Assembly (NCBI GenBank): GCA_019637955.1
Contig: JAHBUS010000007.1
Span: 124,001-188,000, forward strand
DNA length: 64,000 nt
Reading direction: 5' to 3'
Origin: Pseudobdellovibrionaceae bacterium
GTDB taxonomy: Bacteria > Bdellovibrionota > Bdellovibrionia > Bdellovibrionales > Bdellovibrionaceae
Part shown: positions 51,342 to 55,669 of the stretch, piece by piece
Position numbering within the stretch: position 1 is the first letter of the stretch
How the letters are laid out: each line of letters starts with the position of its first letter
The notes under the pieces: generated by a model
What the model saw: only the letters and a program-made list of their open reading frames with translations
What the model was told of the DNA's origin: nothing
Database searches by the model: none
Program-made: the position numbers and the translations under genes

Positions 51342-51417
51342 GCGGGAATAGCTCAGTTGATAGAGCGATGCCTTGCCAAGGCATAGGTCGCGGGTTTGAG
51401 TCCCGTTTCCCGCTCCA
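51342..51417 (+). tRNA. tRNA-Gly (anticodon GCC), CCA encoded
   Basis: A full cloverleaf is visible: acceptor GCGGGAA/TTCCCGC, D arm GCTC...GAGC, anticodon stem ATGCC/GGCAT with loop TTGCCAA (anticodon GCC at 51375-51377), T arm GCGGG/CCCGT with TTTGAGT loop, discriminator T and encoded CCA. An inverted repeat (51415-51439) follows. The gene marks the boundary between the dense core genome and the accessory region. Confidence 0.95.
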
Positions 51418-51797
51418 ATTTCCCCGCTGGGAAAATTGGTTGGCTCCGCATGAATGTGAAATGACTAAACTGTTAGAGGATTCGATAGCTTCGATCTGAG
51501 GCACAACGCCTTTCCTGATATTTCGCAAAATTTCCTTCGCTGGCTTGTCCGTGGCTTGTTTCCATTCACCTTGTTTTTGAGAATTTTCGGAGTGCAACAA
51601 GTGTCGCACCGGAATTGTAACATCTTGAAATTCAAAGGTGATTAGTCTTGAGCACACGCTTGCCCGCAAATGCTATCAAAAAACGTGAATTTCACGTTTC
51701 AATAGCAGTCCGACTCTGAATACTACCTTGCCGACATTTAGACCTTGCATCCGTATTGGGTTTTCCAAAGCGCACAACCCTAAAAGGAGGCACCCTT
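51418..51797. other. Non-coding stretch between tRNA-Gly and the tandem-HTH gene
   Basis: About 380 bp. It holds an imperfect hairpin right after the tRNA (51415-51439, CCAATTTCCC/GGGAAAATTGG), without a T tract, and a large palindrome at 51681-51699. A minus-strand open frame across it runs into the tRNA antisense and is not credible as a whole. The first 250 bp could include decayed sequence. Confidence 0.5.
51681..51699. promoter_or_regulatory. 19-bp perfect palindrome, likely operator of the tandem-HTH gene
   Basis: AAACGTGAA-T-TTCACGTTT is a perfect 9+1+9 repeat. Outer arms TGCTAT (51671-51676) and ATAGCA (51702-51707) extend the symmetry with small offsets. It stands about 100 bp before the HTH gene, as expected for autoregulation by a dimer. 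Confidence 0.55.
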
Positions 51798-52451
51798 ATG
51801 GATGCGCAAGAATTAAGTATAAAACATCGTGGAAAGACCAATACGAAGGTCGTCACAAAAGATGTGATTGTTCTTCGTCGAATGCGGATCGTTCGCAAAG
51901 TAAATCGCAACGATGCTGCGAAAGCGATTGAGCGTTCCGTAAAGTCGATTGAGAGATTCGAGAACGGAAGATCGAACCTCTCGACTGAGCAAAAGAAAAT
52001 ACTTGTCCGGCGCTACCGATTCACTTGGCAGGAATTTTTAGCCTATTTGGACGGTCAGTGTGATCTACCGGATTTGCCCTCACGTTCCACTTATCCGAGC
52101 AAGGAAAAGCCTCGTGAGGATGGCAGAAAGTATCAAAAGGTCATTTCAAAAGAAGCACGCGTTCTCAAAGTTATGCGTAAAATGGCGGGACTCACTCAGC
52201 CCGAAGCTGGCGCAAAATGCGATATGCACCGGAGCTGCATTGACCATCTTGAAAACGGACGCGTGGAGATTACGCGCGAGAAAATTGAACATGTCGTCCG
52301 ATCCTACGGCTTCAAAATGTATATCTTTGAAGAATTGCTGGAAGCGCCAATGTTGCGCGACGAAGTTCTACAAGAATGCCTCAAAATCTTAACGGTTTTG
52401 GACAACGAAAAGCTGCGCGCAGTGAAAGCACTGCTCGACAATTTTCGTTAA
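51798..52451 (+). CDS. Regulator with two tandem XRE-type HTH domains
   Basis: The 217-residue protein contains two similar HTH units. The first is about residues 25-90 (VLRRMRIVRKVNRNDAAKAI, SVKSIERFENGRSNLST) and the second about 115-180 (RVLKVMRKMAGLTQPEAGAK, HRSCIDHLENGRVEITREKI). Each ends in an ENGR turn. The ATG at 51798 has AAAGGAGG 7 bases upstream. The tandem layout lets one chain read two half-sites. A perfect palindrome upstream is the likely target. It is the first gene of the putative island. Confidence 0.82.
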   Translation: MDAQELSIKHRGKTNTKVVTKDVIVLRRMRIVRKVNRNDAAKAIERSVKSIERFENGRSNLSTEQKKILVRRYRFTWQEFLAYLDGQCDLPDLPSRSTYPSKEKPREDGRKYQKVISKEARVLKVMRKMAGLTQPEAGAKCDMHRSCIDHLENGRVEITREKIEHVVRSYGFKMYIFEELLEAPMLRDEVLQECLKILTVLDNEKLRAVKALLDNFR

Positions 52452-52501: not shown

Positions 52502-52882
52502 ATGGAAAATAAAGTGCAAAAAACAGAAGTAAAAATCATCAAAAAATCAACTAAAACAGCAGCGTCTTATGCCTCGATACGTATTCCAATGGAGCTAAAA
52601 AAGAATGCAAAAAAATGGCGAGACATAGCAAATCGGAATAAGACTGGACGAAAAATAAAACTGCACGAAATTCTCACAATAGGCGTTGATCTGATTGCAG
52701 AAGAAAACATTAGAGAGCTGCAAGAAAAATCTCTAACTCATAAAGAACGGTTAGAGATTTTGCGTCAGAAATATATCACTCAGCATGGTCCTATTTCTGA
52801 AGACGATTTCATCGGATTTACCATGACAGCGGAGTATCAAGATTTCCTTAGTCAGCAGGGCTACCTAAAAACTGTAGCATAG
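52502..52882 (+). CDS. Small AT-rich accessory protein, unknown
   Basis: The protein has 126 residues, with a Lys-rich start (KVQKTEVKIIKKSTKTAASY), then SIRIPMELKKNAKKWRDIAN, which looks like a ribbon-helix-helix or basic DNA-binding start, and a helical C-terminal half (LIAEENIRELQEKSL). AAAGGA lies 9 bases before the ATG. Base composition is clearly more AT-rich than core genes. It may be a plasmid- or island-type regulator; I do not recognise it. Confidence 0.65.
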   Translation: MENKVQKTEVKIIKKSTKTAASYASIRIPMELKKNAKKWRDIANRNKTGRKIKLHEILTIGVDLIAEENIRELQEKSLTHKERLEILRQKYITQHGPISEDDFIGFTMTAEYQDFLSQQGYLKTVA

Positions 52883-53031: not shown

Positions 53032-53925
53032 CTATTTCTGTTCTGCGGAGCGGAACTTTTCGATTCGAGTATAAGCAATCTTGTATTGAAAAGTCGGAAC
53101 ATCCAGCCAGTGCGAAACTGTGACAGTTTTCTTGTTCACGCGCACGACAGGCATCCAGCTACCTTTGTAGTAAATGTGATCGCCCGATTTAATTGTTTCA
53201 GGTGAGGCCACTTTGCCGCCCTCTTCTTGGCGAGCTGCCTCGATCTCGGCAAGACGACCTTGCCAAAATGCGAGTTTTTCCTGCGCCTGAATGAGTCGCG
53301 GATTTGTCGGCTCCGCCCATTTGGAAAGTTGTCGCACAGCTTTTTCAGCTTCTTTGATACGGTTTCCGATATAGCGGCGATTTTCCATGCGCTCTTGCGA
53401 ACGATTGAGGTCGAACGCACGACCTCGGAGATACGCAGCCTTGTCGCTTTCCTCGATGGATTTTTCCACGTTACTGCGAATACGCTCAATATCTCTACGA
53501 TGGCGGCGTTCACTATGGTGGCCGACGAGAATCGGCTGTCCAAAGGGAATGAAGGAGCTTATTTTATCTGCCGCTTGGCTACGGCTTTTTGCACGGGCCT
53601 CGGCATTATCAGCGTAAGTTTCGTAGCGTTCAGCCTTATCTAAATCGCGCTGAATTTTACTTTCCACTTGTTCGGCATAGGATTCGCGTCCGTGCTTCTC
53701 AAGCTGAGTGAGAATTTCAGAACTTGGGTCTTCAAAAAAGGACCATTGGCCGCGAAATTTGCGGCCTTTGATCTCTCGAAAGAATGTTTCTAGTCCGTAG
53801 ATGTTGCCAGAGGCAACCCAAACGGGACGCGGTTTCTTTCCCGGCTTGGAGGGAGTGGTCATCGTTTCGATGATTTTCACACCGAAACTTTCAAGAGAAT
53901 TTGGAGTGATGTTTTGCTGATTCAT
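53032..53925 (-). CDS. DUF3560-type protein of plasmid/phage context
   Basis: The 297-residue protein contains a coiled, Arg/Glu-rich region typical of DUF3560 proteins: YETYADNAEARAKSRSQAAD, SSFIPFGQPILVGHHSERRH, KAAYLRGRAFDLNRS. These are found mainly on plasmids, phages and integrative elements with unknown biochemical role. N-terminal part WVASGNIYGLETFFREIKG and C-terminal part SGDHIYYKGSWMPVVRVN form separate domains. GAAAGGA precedes the ATG. It is the last gene of a three-gene minus-strand unit (54804 down to 53032). Confidence 0.75.
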   Translation of the reverse strand: MNQQNITPNSLESFGVKIIETMTTPSKPGKKPRPVWVASGNIYGLETFFREIKGRKFRGQWSFFEDPSSEILTQLEKHGRESYAEQVESKIQRDLDKAERYETYADNAEARAKSRSQAADKISSFIPFGQPILVGHHSERRHRRDIERIRSNVEKSIEESDKAAYLRGRAFDLNRSQERMENRRYIGNRIKEAEKAVRQLSKWAEPTNPRLIQAQEKLAFWQGRLAEIEAARQEEGGKVASPETIKSGDHIYYKGSWMPVVRVNKKTVTVSHWLDVPTFQYKIAYTRIEKFRSAEQK

Positions 53926-53939
53926 TATATGATCCTTTC

Positions 53940-54347
53940 TTAGTTGTTATTAAAGCGTTTGAGGAAAAGCGGAGTTGCTTTTACGGATGCAATGGCGTCA
54001 TCCATAAAGCGGCTATCACAAGCACTGTATTTCATGCTTCTGATGGTCATGATTCCTTGATCTTCGGGTGCGCTGAAGGGATCTGTGTCCACTTCGACCC
54101 AACCCTCGAAAAGAGCAACGTCTGTTTCTCTGGCAAATTTTAGACTGTGAAGATCGCGCTTCTTCTTTTTTGGAGTGAAGACGAGTTCTACACACTCCTC
54201 ATAGGAAGAATAACGACCGATTTTTGCTTCATGGAGCGTGAACTGAATTGCATTCACTCCCAATCCCATGCTGTTTTTGACAATGACGGTGTAGCGTTTG
54301 CCGCTTTCAAGTTTGAGTAGTTCACTAAAGTTATTGACTTGTTCCAT
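53940..54347 (-). CDS. Unknown accessory protein (135 aa)
   Basis: The protein is soluble and rich in beta strands and aromatic residues: KRYTVIVKNSMGLGVNAIQF, CVELVFTPKKKKRDLH, ALFEGWVEVDTDPF. GAAAGGA lies before the ATG. It is 14 bp upstream of the DUF3560 gene and follows a hairpin that separates it from the 54424 gene. No family recognised. Confidence 0.65.
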   Translation of the reverse strand: MEQVNNFSELLKLESGKRYTVIVKNSMGLGVNAIQFTLHEAKIGRYSSYEECVELVFTPKKKKRDLHSLKFARETDVALFEGWVEVDTDPFSAPEDQGIMTIRSMKYSACDSRFMDDAIASVKATPLFLKRFNNN

Positions 54348-54423: not shown

Positions 54424-54804
54424 TTAGGCAGGAAGAGCCTCGCTGACGCTTTGAGCTTCTTCAGCCGCAGCAGACAGGATTTTCTTGTAGTAGTTGACGT
54501 GTTTGGAGACTCGCACTCCGAGAACACTGTGGATGAGGTAGTCGCCCTTCAGATAGACCACCGGGCGAGCGATGAGTCCAAAGACAGCGCGAGTCGCCGT
54601 TTGCTCTTCTGAACGCTCTTTCTTCTCGAAAGGGATTCCCAGAATGGATTTGTAGAGATTCACGGGCATCTCAATTCTGAGATCATTTCCCAGACGGTGC
54701 GTGATGGTTCCGCGTTCTTCGTTCAAGTACACTTGTGGATTTGCGTAGAAGCCTTGAAATTGTTTGTTTTGTTGAGCTTGGTTGTTTTGTTCTTTATTTT
54801 GCAT
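54424..54804 (-). CDS. Unknown accessory protein (126 aa), Gln/Asn-rich start
   Basis: Begins with a Gln/Asn-rich stretch (QNKEQNNQAQQNKQFQGFY), then a compact domain (VYLNEERGTITHRLGNDLRI, YKSILGIPFEKKERSEE, GDYLIHSVLGVRVSKHVNYY) and a helical tail. AAAGGAG lies 6 bases before the ATG. It is the first gene of the three-gene unit and follows the structured GC-rich block. Function unknown. Confidence 0.65.
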   Translation of the reverse strand: MQNKEQNNQAQQNKQFQGFYANPQVYLNEERGTITHRLGNDLRIEMPVNLYKSILGIPFEKKERSEEQTATRAVFGLIARPVVYLKGDYLIHSVLGVRVSKHVNYYKKILSAAAEEAQSVSEALPA

Positions 54805-54855
54805 GACTTTCTCCTTTGAAAGTTTGTTTTTGCGTTGGTTCCCATCAACATCGAA

Positions 54856-55011
54856 GGGGGCCTCGCCCAGAGGACGCCCCCTGAAGATGGAGGATTAAGG
54901 GAGAGGAACGAGCCTCCCCCGACCGTAAACGCGAGAGCATCCGAGAGATGCGGTAGCGGCAGGGACCGTGACACCGAGCGAAGCGAATGGCGCGGCTCCC
55001 TGCAAAGGGAG
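54856..55011. ncRNA. GC-rich structured block, candidate non-coding RNA, leader or oriT
   Basis: Three hairpins lie within 156 bp. First GGGGG-CCTC...GAGG...CCCCC (54856-54881), then GCATC-CGAGA-GATGC (54937-54951), then CTCCCT-GCAA-AGGGAG (54996-55011). The block is markedly GC-rich inside an AT-rich island and contains no credible gene on either strand. It lies just upstream of the minus-strand accessory operon, so it may be its leader, an independent RNA, or a transfer origin. Confidence 0.4.
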
Positions 55012-55222
55012 GATCAGGGAGGATCGTGGAGCGACCGTCTTGAGCAAAAATCAATTCAAAATGGGAGAAGGTTCCAAAATAAGTTCAAAGCAGCTTGTCT
55101 GAGCAACGAATGTGTTCTTCAAGGCAAGACCAGATTCTCAACGACTGAATATAGTCAGCGAAAAATCTGCTCCGTTGAAATGTCGATTAGAGATGAACCT
55201 GAATTTTTAATTGTCATTGGGA

Positions 55223-55402
55223 CTATTTTTGATTGGCGTTCAGAGAGAAAATGGTTTCGCCTTTTATGGACTGCACCTGGTGGTCGCTGAATAGCTCCTC
55301 AATCCAGGTTCTATGAGCGGAACCCAACCGAAACTCCAAGTGCTCCATGTCTGCGGTTGAAATGGCGTCCGGCGAGTTACTGTTCCCTAAACACTCCTTC
55401 AT
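55223..55402 (-). CDS. Possible 59-aa protein (weak)
   Basis: An open frame with GGAAG a few bases before the ATG encodes a soluble peptide (SNSPDAISTADMEHLEFRLG, HRTWIEELFSDHQVQS). It is in an otherwise gene-poor stretch and has no recognisable similarity. The start lies inside a larger inverted repeat. It may be chance. Confidence 0.25.
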   Translation of the reverse strand: MKECLGNSNSPDAISTADMEHLEFRLGSAHRTWIEELFSDHQVQSIKGETIFSLNANQK

Positions 55403-55432
55403 CAGCCTTCCGGCTTGGGAAAAAGGAGTGTT
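55390..55432 (+). promoter_or_regulatory. Hairpin sequestering the ribosome-binding site of the 55434 gene
   Basis: AACACTCCTT (55390-55399) is perfectly complementary to AAGGAGTGTT (55423-55432), whose AAGGAG is the ribosome-binding site of the ATG at 55434. The loop contains a small inner stem AGCC/GGCT. Folding would hide the site, so translation probably depends on temperature, a ligand, a protein or an RNA partner. Confidence 0.6.
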
Positions 55433-55433
55433 C

Positions 55434-55595
55434 ATGGAACAAAATCAAAATGACAATTATATTACGTTTGAACTGAACATGAAGTTGCAGATGCGCGACT
55501 ACAGGATTGTGCTTGGACTCAAGCGCACTTGGATTCTGGCGATAATTGTAGGAGTCATTCAGCTTAGTGTGTGGATTATTAAAAATCGGCCTTGA
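55434..55595 (+). CDS. 53-aa single-pass membrane peptide
   Basis: Hydrophilic, Asn/Gln-rich start (EQNQNDNYITFELNMKLQ), then a basic stretch and one membrane helix (WILAIIVGVIQLSVWIIK) ending in KNRP. The AAGGAG 5 bases before the ATG is strong but buried in a perfect 10-bp stem. Small size, single helix and controlled translation resemble toxic or regulatory small membrane peptides. No known family. Confidence 0.6.
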   Translation: MEQNQNDNYITFELNMKLQMRDYRIVLGLKRTWILAIIVGVIQLSVWIIKNRP

Positions 55596-55669
55596 GGTAA
55601 CTCATAGGCCGCAATGATTTGTCCGAAGAGTATTCGCTGATTTCATCGGTTGACACCACTTTTTTAAAT

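Follow-up and report, generated by a model that had tools for sequence, protein, structure and literature searches.

A hairpin predicted to lock translation of a small membrane peptide often carried on tRNA-associated islands of Bdellovibrio-like bacteria

Insertion sequences of the IS10/IS50 type hide the start of their transposase gene from outside transcripts. Among type I toxins, as far as the available excerpts of the cited papers go, members of the membrane class generally have fewer than 60 aa, a single helix and cationic residues (PMC8309996), and the primary toxin mRNA of many Gram-negative systems is inert until it is processed (PMC11228461). In the Fst mRNA an intramolecular 5' stem-loop hides the Shine-Dalgarno sequence (SD) (PMC7472228), and for the AapA3 mRNA structures that sequester the SD are backed by compensatory mutations (PMC6733600). 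According to a 2025 abstract (PMC12390103), type I systems had been found only in Proteobacteria, Firmicutes and Tenericutes, and in the literature that we searched we found no type I toxin study in Bdellovibrio-like bacteria.

The locus compared here with these systems lies in a stretch of 64,000 nucleotides from a Pseudobdellovibrionaceae genome, which as a whole is called the window. An initial annotation had proposed that a 10-bp stem conceals the ribosome-binding site of a 53-aa membrane peptide, and the pairing is exactly as it claimed: the anti-Shine-Dalgarno arm AACACTCCTT (55390-55399, plus strand) and AAGGAGTGTT (55423-55432, plus strand) form a perfect 10-bp stem with a 23-base loop. 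The second arm, assigned from pairing, fold and SD comparison, contains the SD AAGGAG (55423-55428) and ends one base 5' of the ATG at 55434. The stem is retained when the RNA of 55380-55600 is folded (z = -3.43 versus shuffles), and the fold gives an apical stem-loop (55402-55420, plus strand), for which close homologs carry the related apical sequence GCC-UNNC-GGC, then GGG. It also adds an outer stem, whose 5' arm TGTTCC (55381-55386, plus strand; compensatory changes in homologs) pairs with GGAACA (55436-55441), so that the final base of the start codon is covered together with most of codons 2-3. In the predicted fold the SD and the first codons are enclosed in one hairpin of about 60 bases, and over 55381-55441 there was no Rfam match at E-values up to 5. 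By count alone a perfect 10-bp stem is unremarkable in the window, in which such hairpins start at 8 places (2-8 in Markov shuffles) and are expected a few times by chance; the case for this hairpin therefore rests on its position and conservation, which to judge from the homologs exceed chance.

The open reading frame (ATG 55434 to TGA 55595, plus strand) encodes the single-helix membrane peptide that had been claimed. It has one hydrophobic stretch (best 19-mer, residues 32-50) and a charge of +3, and the AlphaFold model, of moderate confidence, is one long helix from residue 3 to 50 (pLDDT 77, pTM 0.35). The N-terminal half is polar, which counts against the explanation favoured below. Searching with the 53-aa peptide and then with a profile yielded relatives in 20 of 140 genomes of the order (E 0.01), and in 23 of 368 genomes of the phylum with a total of 29 loci (E 0.001), so that the putatively hairpin-locked peptide appears to be more general than a single locus. 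One match at E 0.006 (G099) and the weak matches L010-L018 were left out of the family count. The named records among the relatives are assemblies of Bdellovibrio, Bdellovibrionales and Pseudobdellovibrionaceae, and the genome of the window itself carries two copies, the peptides of which are 81% identical. At 25 of the 29 loci the peptides comprise 47-57 aa, each with a hydrophobic 19-mer and a net charge of +1 to +7, and hence share with membrane-class toxins a length below 60 aa, hydrophobicity, one helix and cationic character. A hydrophobic 19-mer together with net positive charge is present in 28 of 29 peptides, one being truncated; in G052a a stop cuts the peptide to 18 aa. Three variants (G023 twice, G093) reach 67-77 aa, two of the three being cut by contig ends, and agree with the rest of the family in the hairpin and in residues 1-20, while their C-terminal half is different and longer. 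At L008, L039 and L038, from two families, the hairpin and the first 20 codons stand before a different C-terminal half, as if a locked N-terminal module had been swapped.

The peptide is a real protein under purifying selection, as shown by a dN/dS of 0.12 between the two copies in the window's genome and of 0.01-0.22 over the 17 of 36 pairs for which it was computable (dS was saturated in 19 pairs and very large in one more). It has no Pfam or PADLOC match, and the best hits to PHROG (E 0.068) and NCBIfam (E 0.09) are both meaningless. IMG/VR, phage and plasmid collections contained no relative and the PDB none that was convincing, and in the family libraries searched we met no sequence relation to Fst/Ldr or other named peptide toxins. 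Around Trp33 the run CTTGGATT (55525-55540 and homologs) is kept at the nucleotide level, and Thr/Ala codons before TGG end in T in 12 of 14 cases, compared with 43 of 96 in neighbouring genes (p 0.002).

The hairpin lies over the SD at 28 of the 29 homologous loci, and its two arms change sequence together. For the 29 loci the predicted mean pairing probability of the SD is 0.96, as opposed to 0.60 for 146 neighbouring gene starts with an SD, 14% of which exceed 0.9; pairing of the start codon is like that of the controls (0.63 vs 0.58). Two loci, G114 and G020c, which are different or degenerate, were left out of this comparison and of later tests. In a sequence-only MAFFT alignment of 11 close loci both sides have changed in 10 of 23 pairs, a number reached by 0 of 500 shuffles, with 1-5 in slid controls. 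In an alignment-free arm-swap test the outer 5' arm of each locus was paired in turn with the 3' arm of that locus and with those of all the others. Own arms gave -11.5 kcal/mol over 28 loci and swapped arms -5.9 (0 of 20000 permutations), and the own partner was among the first three of 28 at 21 loci. The window locus ranks only 6th, perhaps because its relatives have similar arms. Four of the 28 loci (G139a, G140, G160a, G160b) showed no clearly better own pairing, which counts against the favoured explanation, as does G122, which has lost the 5' arm and has a breakpoint inside the hairpin. G122 was excluded from the arm-swap statistics and from the promoter, leader-ORF, melting, long-range pairing and antisense tests. 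At this locus (L028, G122:C166:22606-22755) another sequence replaces the 5' arm up to AAAAGGAG, a natural unlocked or broken form.

Selection on pairing maintains the hairpin, and structure over the SD, as in inert toxin mRNAs, is indicated by both prediction and co-variation. The proposal of the initial annotation that a stem hides the ribosome-binding site as a means of control is thus strongly supported by comparison, with 28 of 29 loci and compensatory changes. If the inverted repeat were a matter of chance, or acted at the DNA level as a recombination or hairpin site with no role in translation, the number of 10-bp hairpins expected in the window would be accounted for, and the island context and the breakpoint in G122 would fit as well; arms that co-vary and stay on the SD at nearly all loci make this extremely improbable. 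In two loci behind the hairpin, from genomes of different families, ATC stands in place of the relatives' ATG start (L030 1501-1503; L071, G160:C11:56561-56563), perhaps as a deliberately weak start.

In the window the peptide gene closes an island whose left end is tRNA-Gly(GCC) (51342-51417, plus strand); in 8 relatives with the pgsA-tRNA-Gly pair the island genes are absent within the available 0.2-1.4 kb. The tRNA is followed by a double helix-turn-helix regulator (51756-52451, plus strand), with relatives upstream of the peptide in 11 of 31 contexts, and by a 126-aa protein of unassigned function (52502-52882, plus strand, start chosen by homology), with relatives in 14. Then come three cargo genes on the minus strand, encoding a DUF3560 protein (53032-53925; relatives in 4 contexts) and two unknown proteins of 135 aa (53940-54347; 3 contexts) and 126 aa (54424-54804; 7 contexts), next a GC-rich palindromic noncoding block (54805-55070), the hairpin with the peptide, and a UvrA-like gene. 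The block, flanked by two divergent genes, recurs with 78% identity in this genome's second island and has no Rfam match; it may represent a structured RNA or else an origin-like site. A related gene set is found at tRNA-Ala elsewhere in this genome, and in many genomes, twice in this one, a tRNA-associated island ends with the peptide gene. Integrase homologs occur in 7 of the 31 contexts (one was checked: PF00589, 4.6e-25), and none was seen in the window's own island. Besides that of the window, tRNA genes (Ala, Met, His, Ser, Asp) are present in 10 of 26 scanned contexts, and all tRNAs found in these lie upstream of the peptide and are co-oriented with it. Across contexts we thus find a tRNA at one end, an integrase and variable presence, as in tRNA-associated integrative islands. 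A search for att repeats gave no repeat of at least 11 bases near the peptide in the window and, at 10 other loci, merely two 10-base matches 2.5-3.5 kb away. Ten of the 31 contexts, some on short contigs, show no island marker, which means that the gene is not confined to islands. In G046 and G023 the peptide is adjoined by a two-gene cargo (L080 5825-7669; 256 and 357 aa) that looks, by eye, like a nucleotidyltransferase-type toxin-antitoxin pair; neither Pfam nor PADLOC gave a match to it.

The likeness to type I toxins put forward in the initial annotation holds for the small, positively charged peptide with its single helix, for the occluded SD and for the mobile context (PMC8309996, PMC7472228, both as excerpts). 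Of the two features that define type I systems, toxicity and an antisense RNA, the second was sought through antisense promoters, which did not rise above controls. Within the ORF a score of at least 9 was reached in 8 of 28 ORFs, against 10.75 expected from codon-shuffled controls. K-mer, dyad and hexamer scans for a conserved upstream promoter gave nothing above shuffles, and leader-like places in the window's genome are the two copies alone, as read from DNA, where transcripts are invisible. Even with a real lock, the product may be a small and harmless membrane protein encoded by the island, for example with an adaptor or transfer function, and made only in a special phase; the hairpin would block its synthesis from read-through or leaky transcription, much as insertion sequences do for their transposase. 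The hairpin and conservation data would fit such a protein too, as would the failure of the antitoxin searches and the position at the island end, where the next gene is convergent in 20 of 26 contexts. No promoter was seen inside the hairpin that would give an unlocked transcript, however, and size, charge and helix match membrane toxins; we consider a harmless product possible, if rather doubtful.

The temperature experiment suggested in the initial annotation hinted at heat sensing, which is unlikely: an RNA thermometer was rejected as modelled pairing of the SD in the window is 0.985 at 37 C and still 0.974 at 75 C. A sensor opened by a physical or chemical signal, be it a thermometer or a small riboswitch, could explain why close homologs keep apical and internal-loop sequence (GCC-UNNC-GGC ... 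GGGYRAAAGGAG) beyond the needs of pairing. Besides the modelled stability, the lack of an Rfam match to the hairpin speaks against it, and the element was not found before a second gene family in 140 genomes, a weak absence with 35 candidates scored per genome; we hold a sensor to be quite improbable. The search of these genomes with model R1 gave 22 matches at E 0.05, 15 of which are family loci. Among the 7 others, G114 has a hairpin in front of another hydrophobic peptide, of 36 aa; G020 and G009 hold degenerate copies, G127 a short ORF of unclear nature, the match in G093 is an echo on the reverse strand and that in G006 is unrelated. The seventh (L061, G022:C11:110783-110842) lies at a gene that by eye is nitroreductase-like, with a long palindrome across the ATG that leaves the SD in the loop.

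Translation-coupled attenuation, in which a leader peptide would be translated through the 5' arm and stalled ribosomes would open the hairpin, finds a possible leader in the window, where an in-frame ORF runs from ATG 55347 through the hairpin into the peptide. SD-bearing leader ORFs that end in the hairpin are present at just 4 of 28 loci, in differing places, and attenuation is accordingly rejected as very improbable. In the two copies of the window's genome we noted a candidate long-range pairing of CCAAGTGC (55336), upstream, with GCACTTGG (55525) in the ORF near Trp33; the swap test gave p 0.0018, with an ORF part that is not special and imperfect shuffles. Since the hairpin is too stable for a thermometer and there is no conserved leader ORF, no Rfam match and no second guarded family seen in 140 genomes, gene-specific silencing is what remains.

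We propose that the mRNA of this island gene immediately adopts a long hairpin in which the SD and the first codons are buried, which would leave the primary transcript translationally inert and permanently locked. Its product would be a cationic single-helix membrane peptide normally unwanted by the cell, most likely a toxin that acts on the membrane and serves island maintenance or abortive defence. A separate event would be needed to free the start site: either the leader is cleaved or another RNA pairs with the 5' arm. Comparison of the genomes supports the hairpin and its co-variation, selection on the peptide and the island setting; we infer that translation is shut off in vivo, that the peptide acts as a toxin and that some event opens the hairpin. 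The hairpin very probably acts as a translational lock and, given a lock, a toxin-like peptide is somewhat more probable than not; for the whole explanation, from locked mRNA to toxin-like membrane peptide and separate opening, we estimate a probability of roughly 0.55. The loci would provide a family of RNA-locked micro-proteins, borne on islands of Bdellovibrio-like bacteria, that lends itself to testing; should the peptide prove toxic, its naturally compensated hairpins offer a ready series on how a stable lock can open. A bolder version sees a new class of self-locked membrane toxins of mobile islands, in which the cis hairpin alone plays the antitoxin, no antisense RNA is needed and the start site opens upon an event in the cell, for instance phage attack or loss of the island; this is speculative and on present evidence unlikely.

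As in insertion sequences of the IS10/IS50 type, the start site here is concealed by an inverted repeat at a mobile element; the locus differs from them in that its gene is no transposase and no inside promoter was seen. The gene would work like a type I toxin mRNA, and we do not class it as a type I toxin-antitoxin system because its toxicity and an antitoxin RNA are hypothetical: antisense promoters are not enriched and the window's genome has no further leader copy. With Fst of par(pAD1) it shares, in the available text of PMC7472228, a short single-helix membrane peptide, a 5' stem-loop that hides the SD and a mobile setting, the Fst family being described on plasmids, phages and islands and as chromosomal copies. 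Fst is a 33-aa peptide of another sequence, in contrast to the 53 aa here, and in par an antisense RNA arises through convergent promoters, direct repeats and a bidirectional terminator, none of which were found at this locus; unlike in Fst, the stem here extends to the start codon and codons 2-3. ZorO, TisB, DinQ and TimP, as covered by the excerpt of PMC11228461, likewise have a structured 5' UTR that bars the ribosome, and are activated by processing or refolding. As described they involve stand-by sites, processing or pseudoknots and antitoxin sRNAs, unlike the present case, and in the family libraries searched they have no sequence relation to this peptide. In AapA/IsoA of Helicobacter pylori (PMC6733600, available part) the toxin mRNA is also rendered inert by a structure that sequesters the SD. 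There the hairpins are transient, the stable lock is a long-distance pairing of the 5' and 3' ends that is removed by 3' trimming, and IsoA is the antisense RNA, whereas at the locus described here the local hairpin is itself the stable predicted form.
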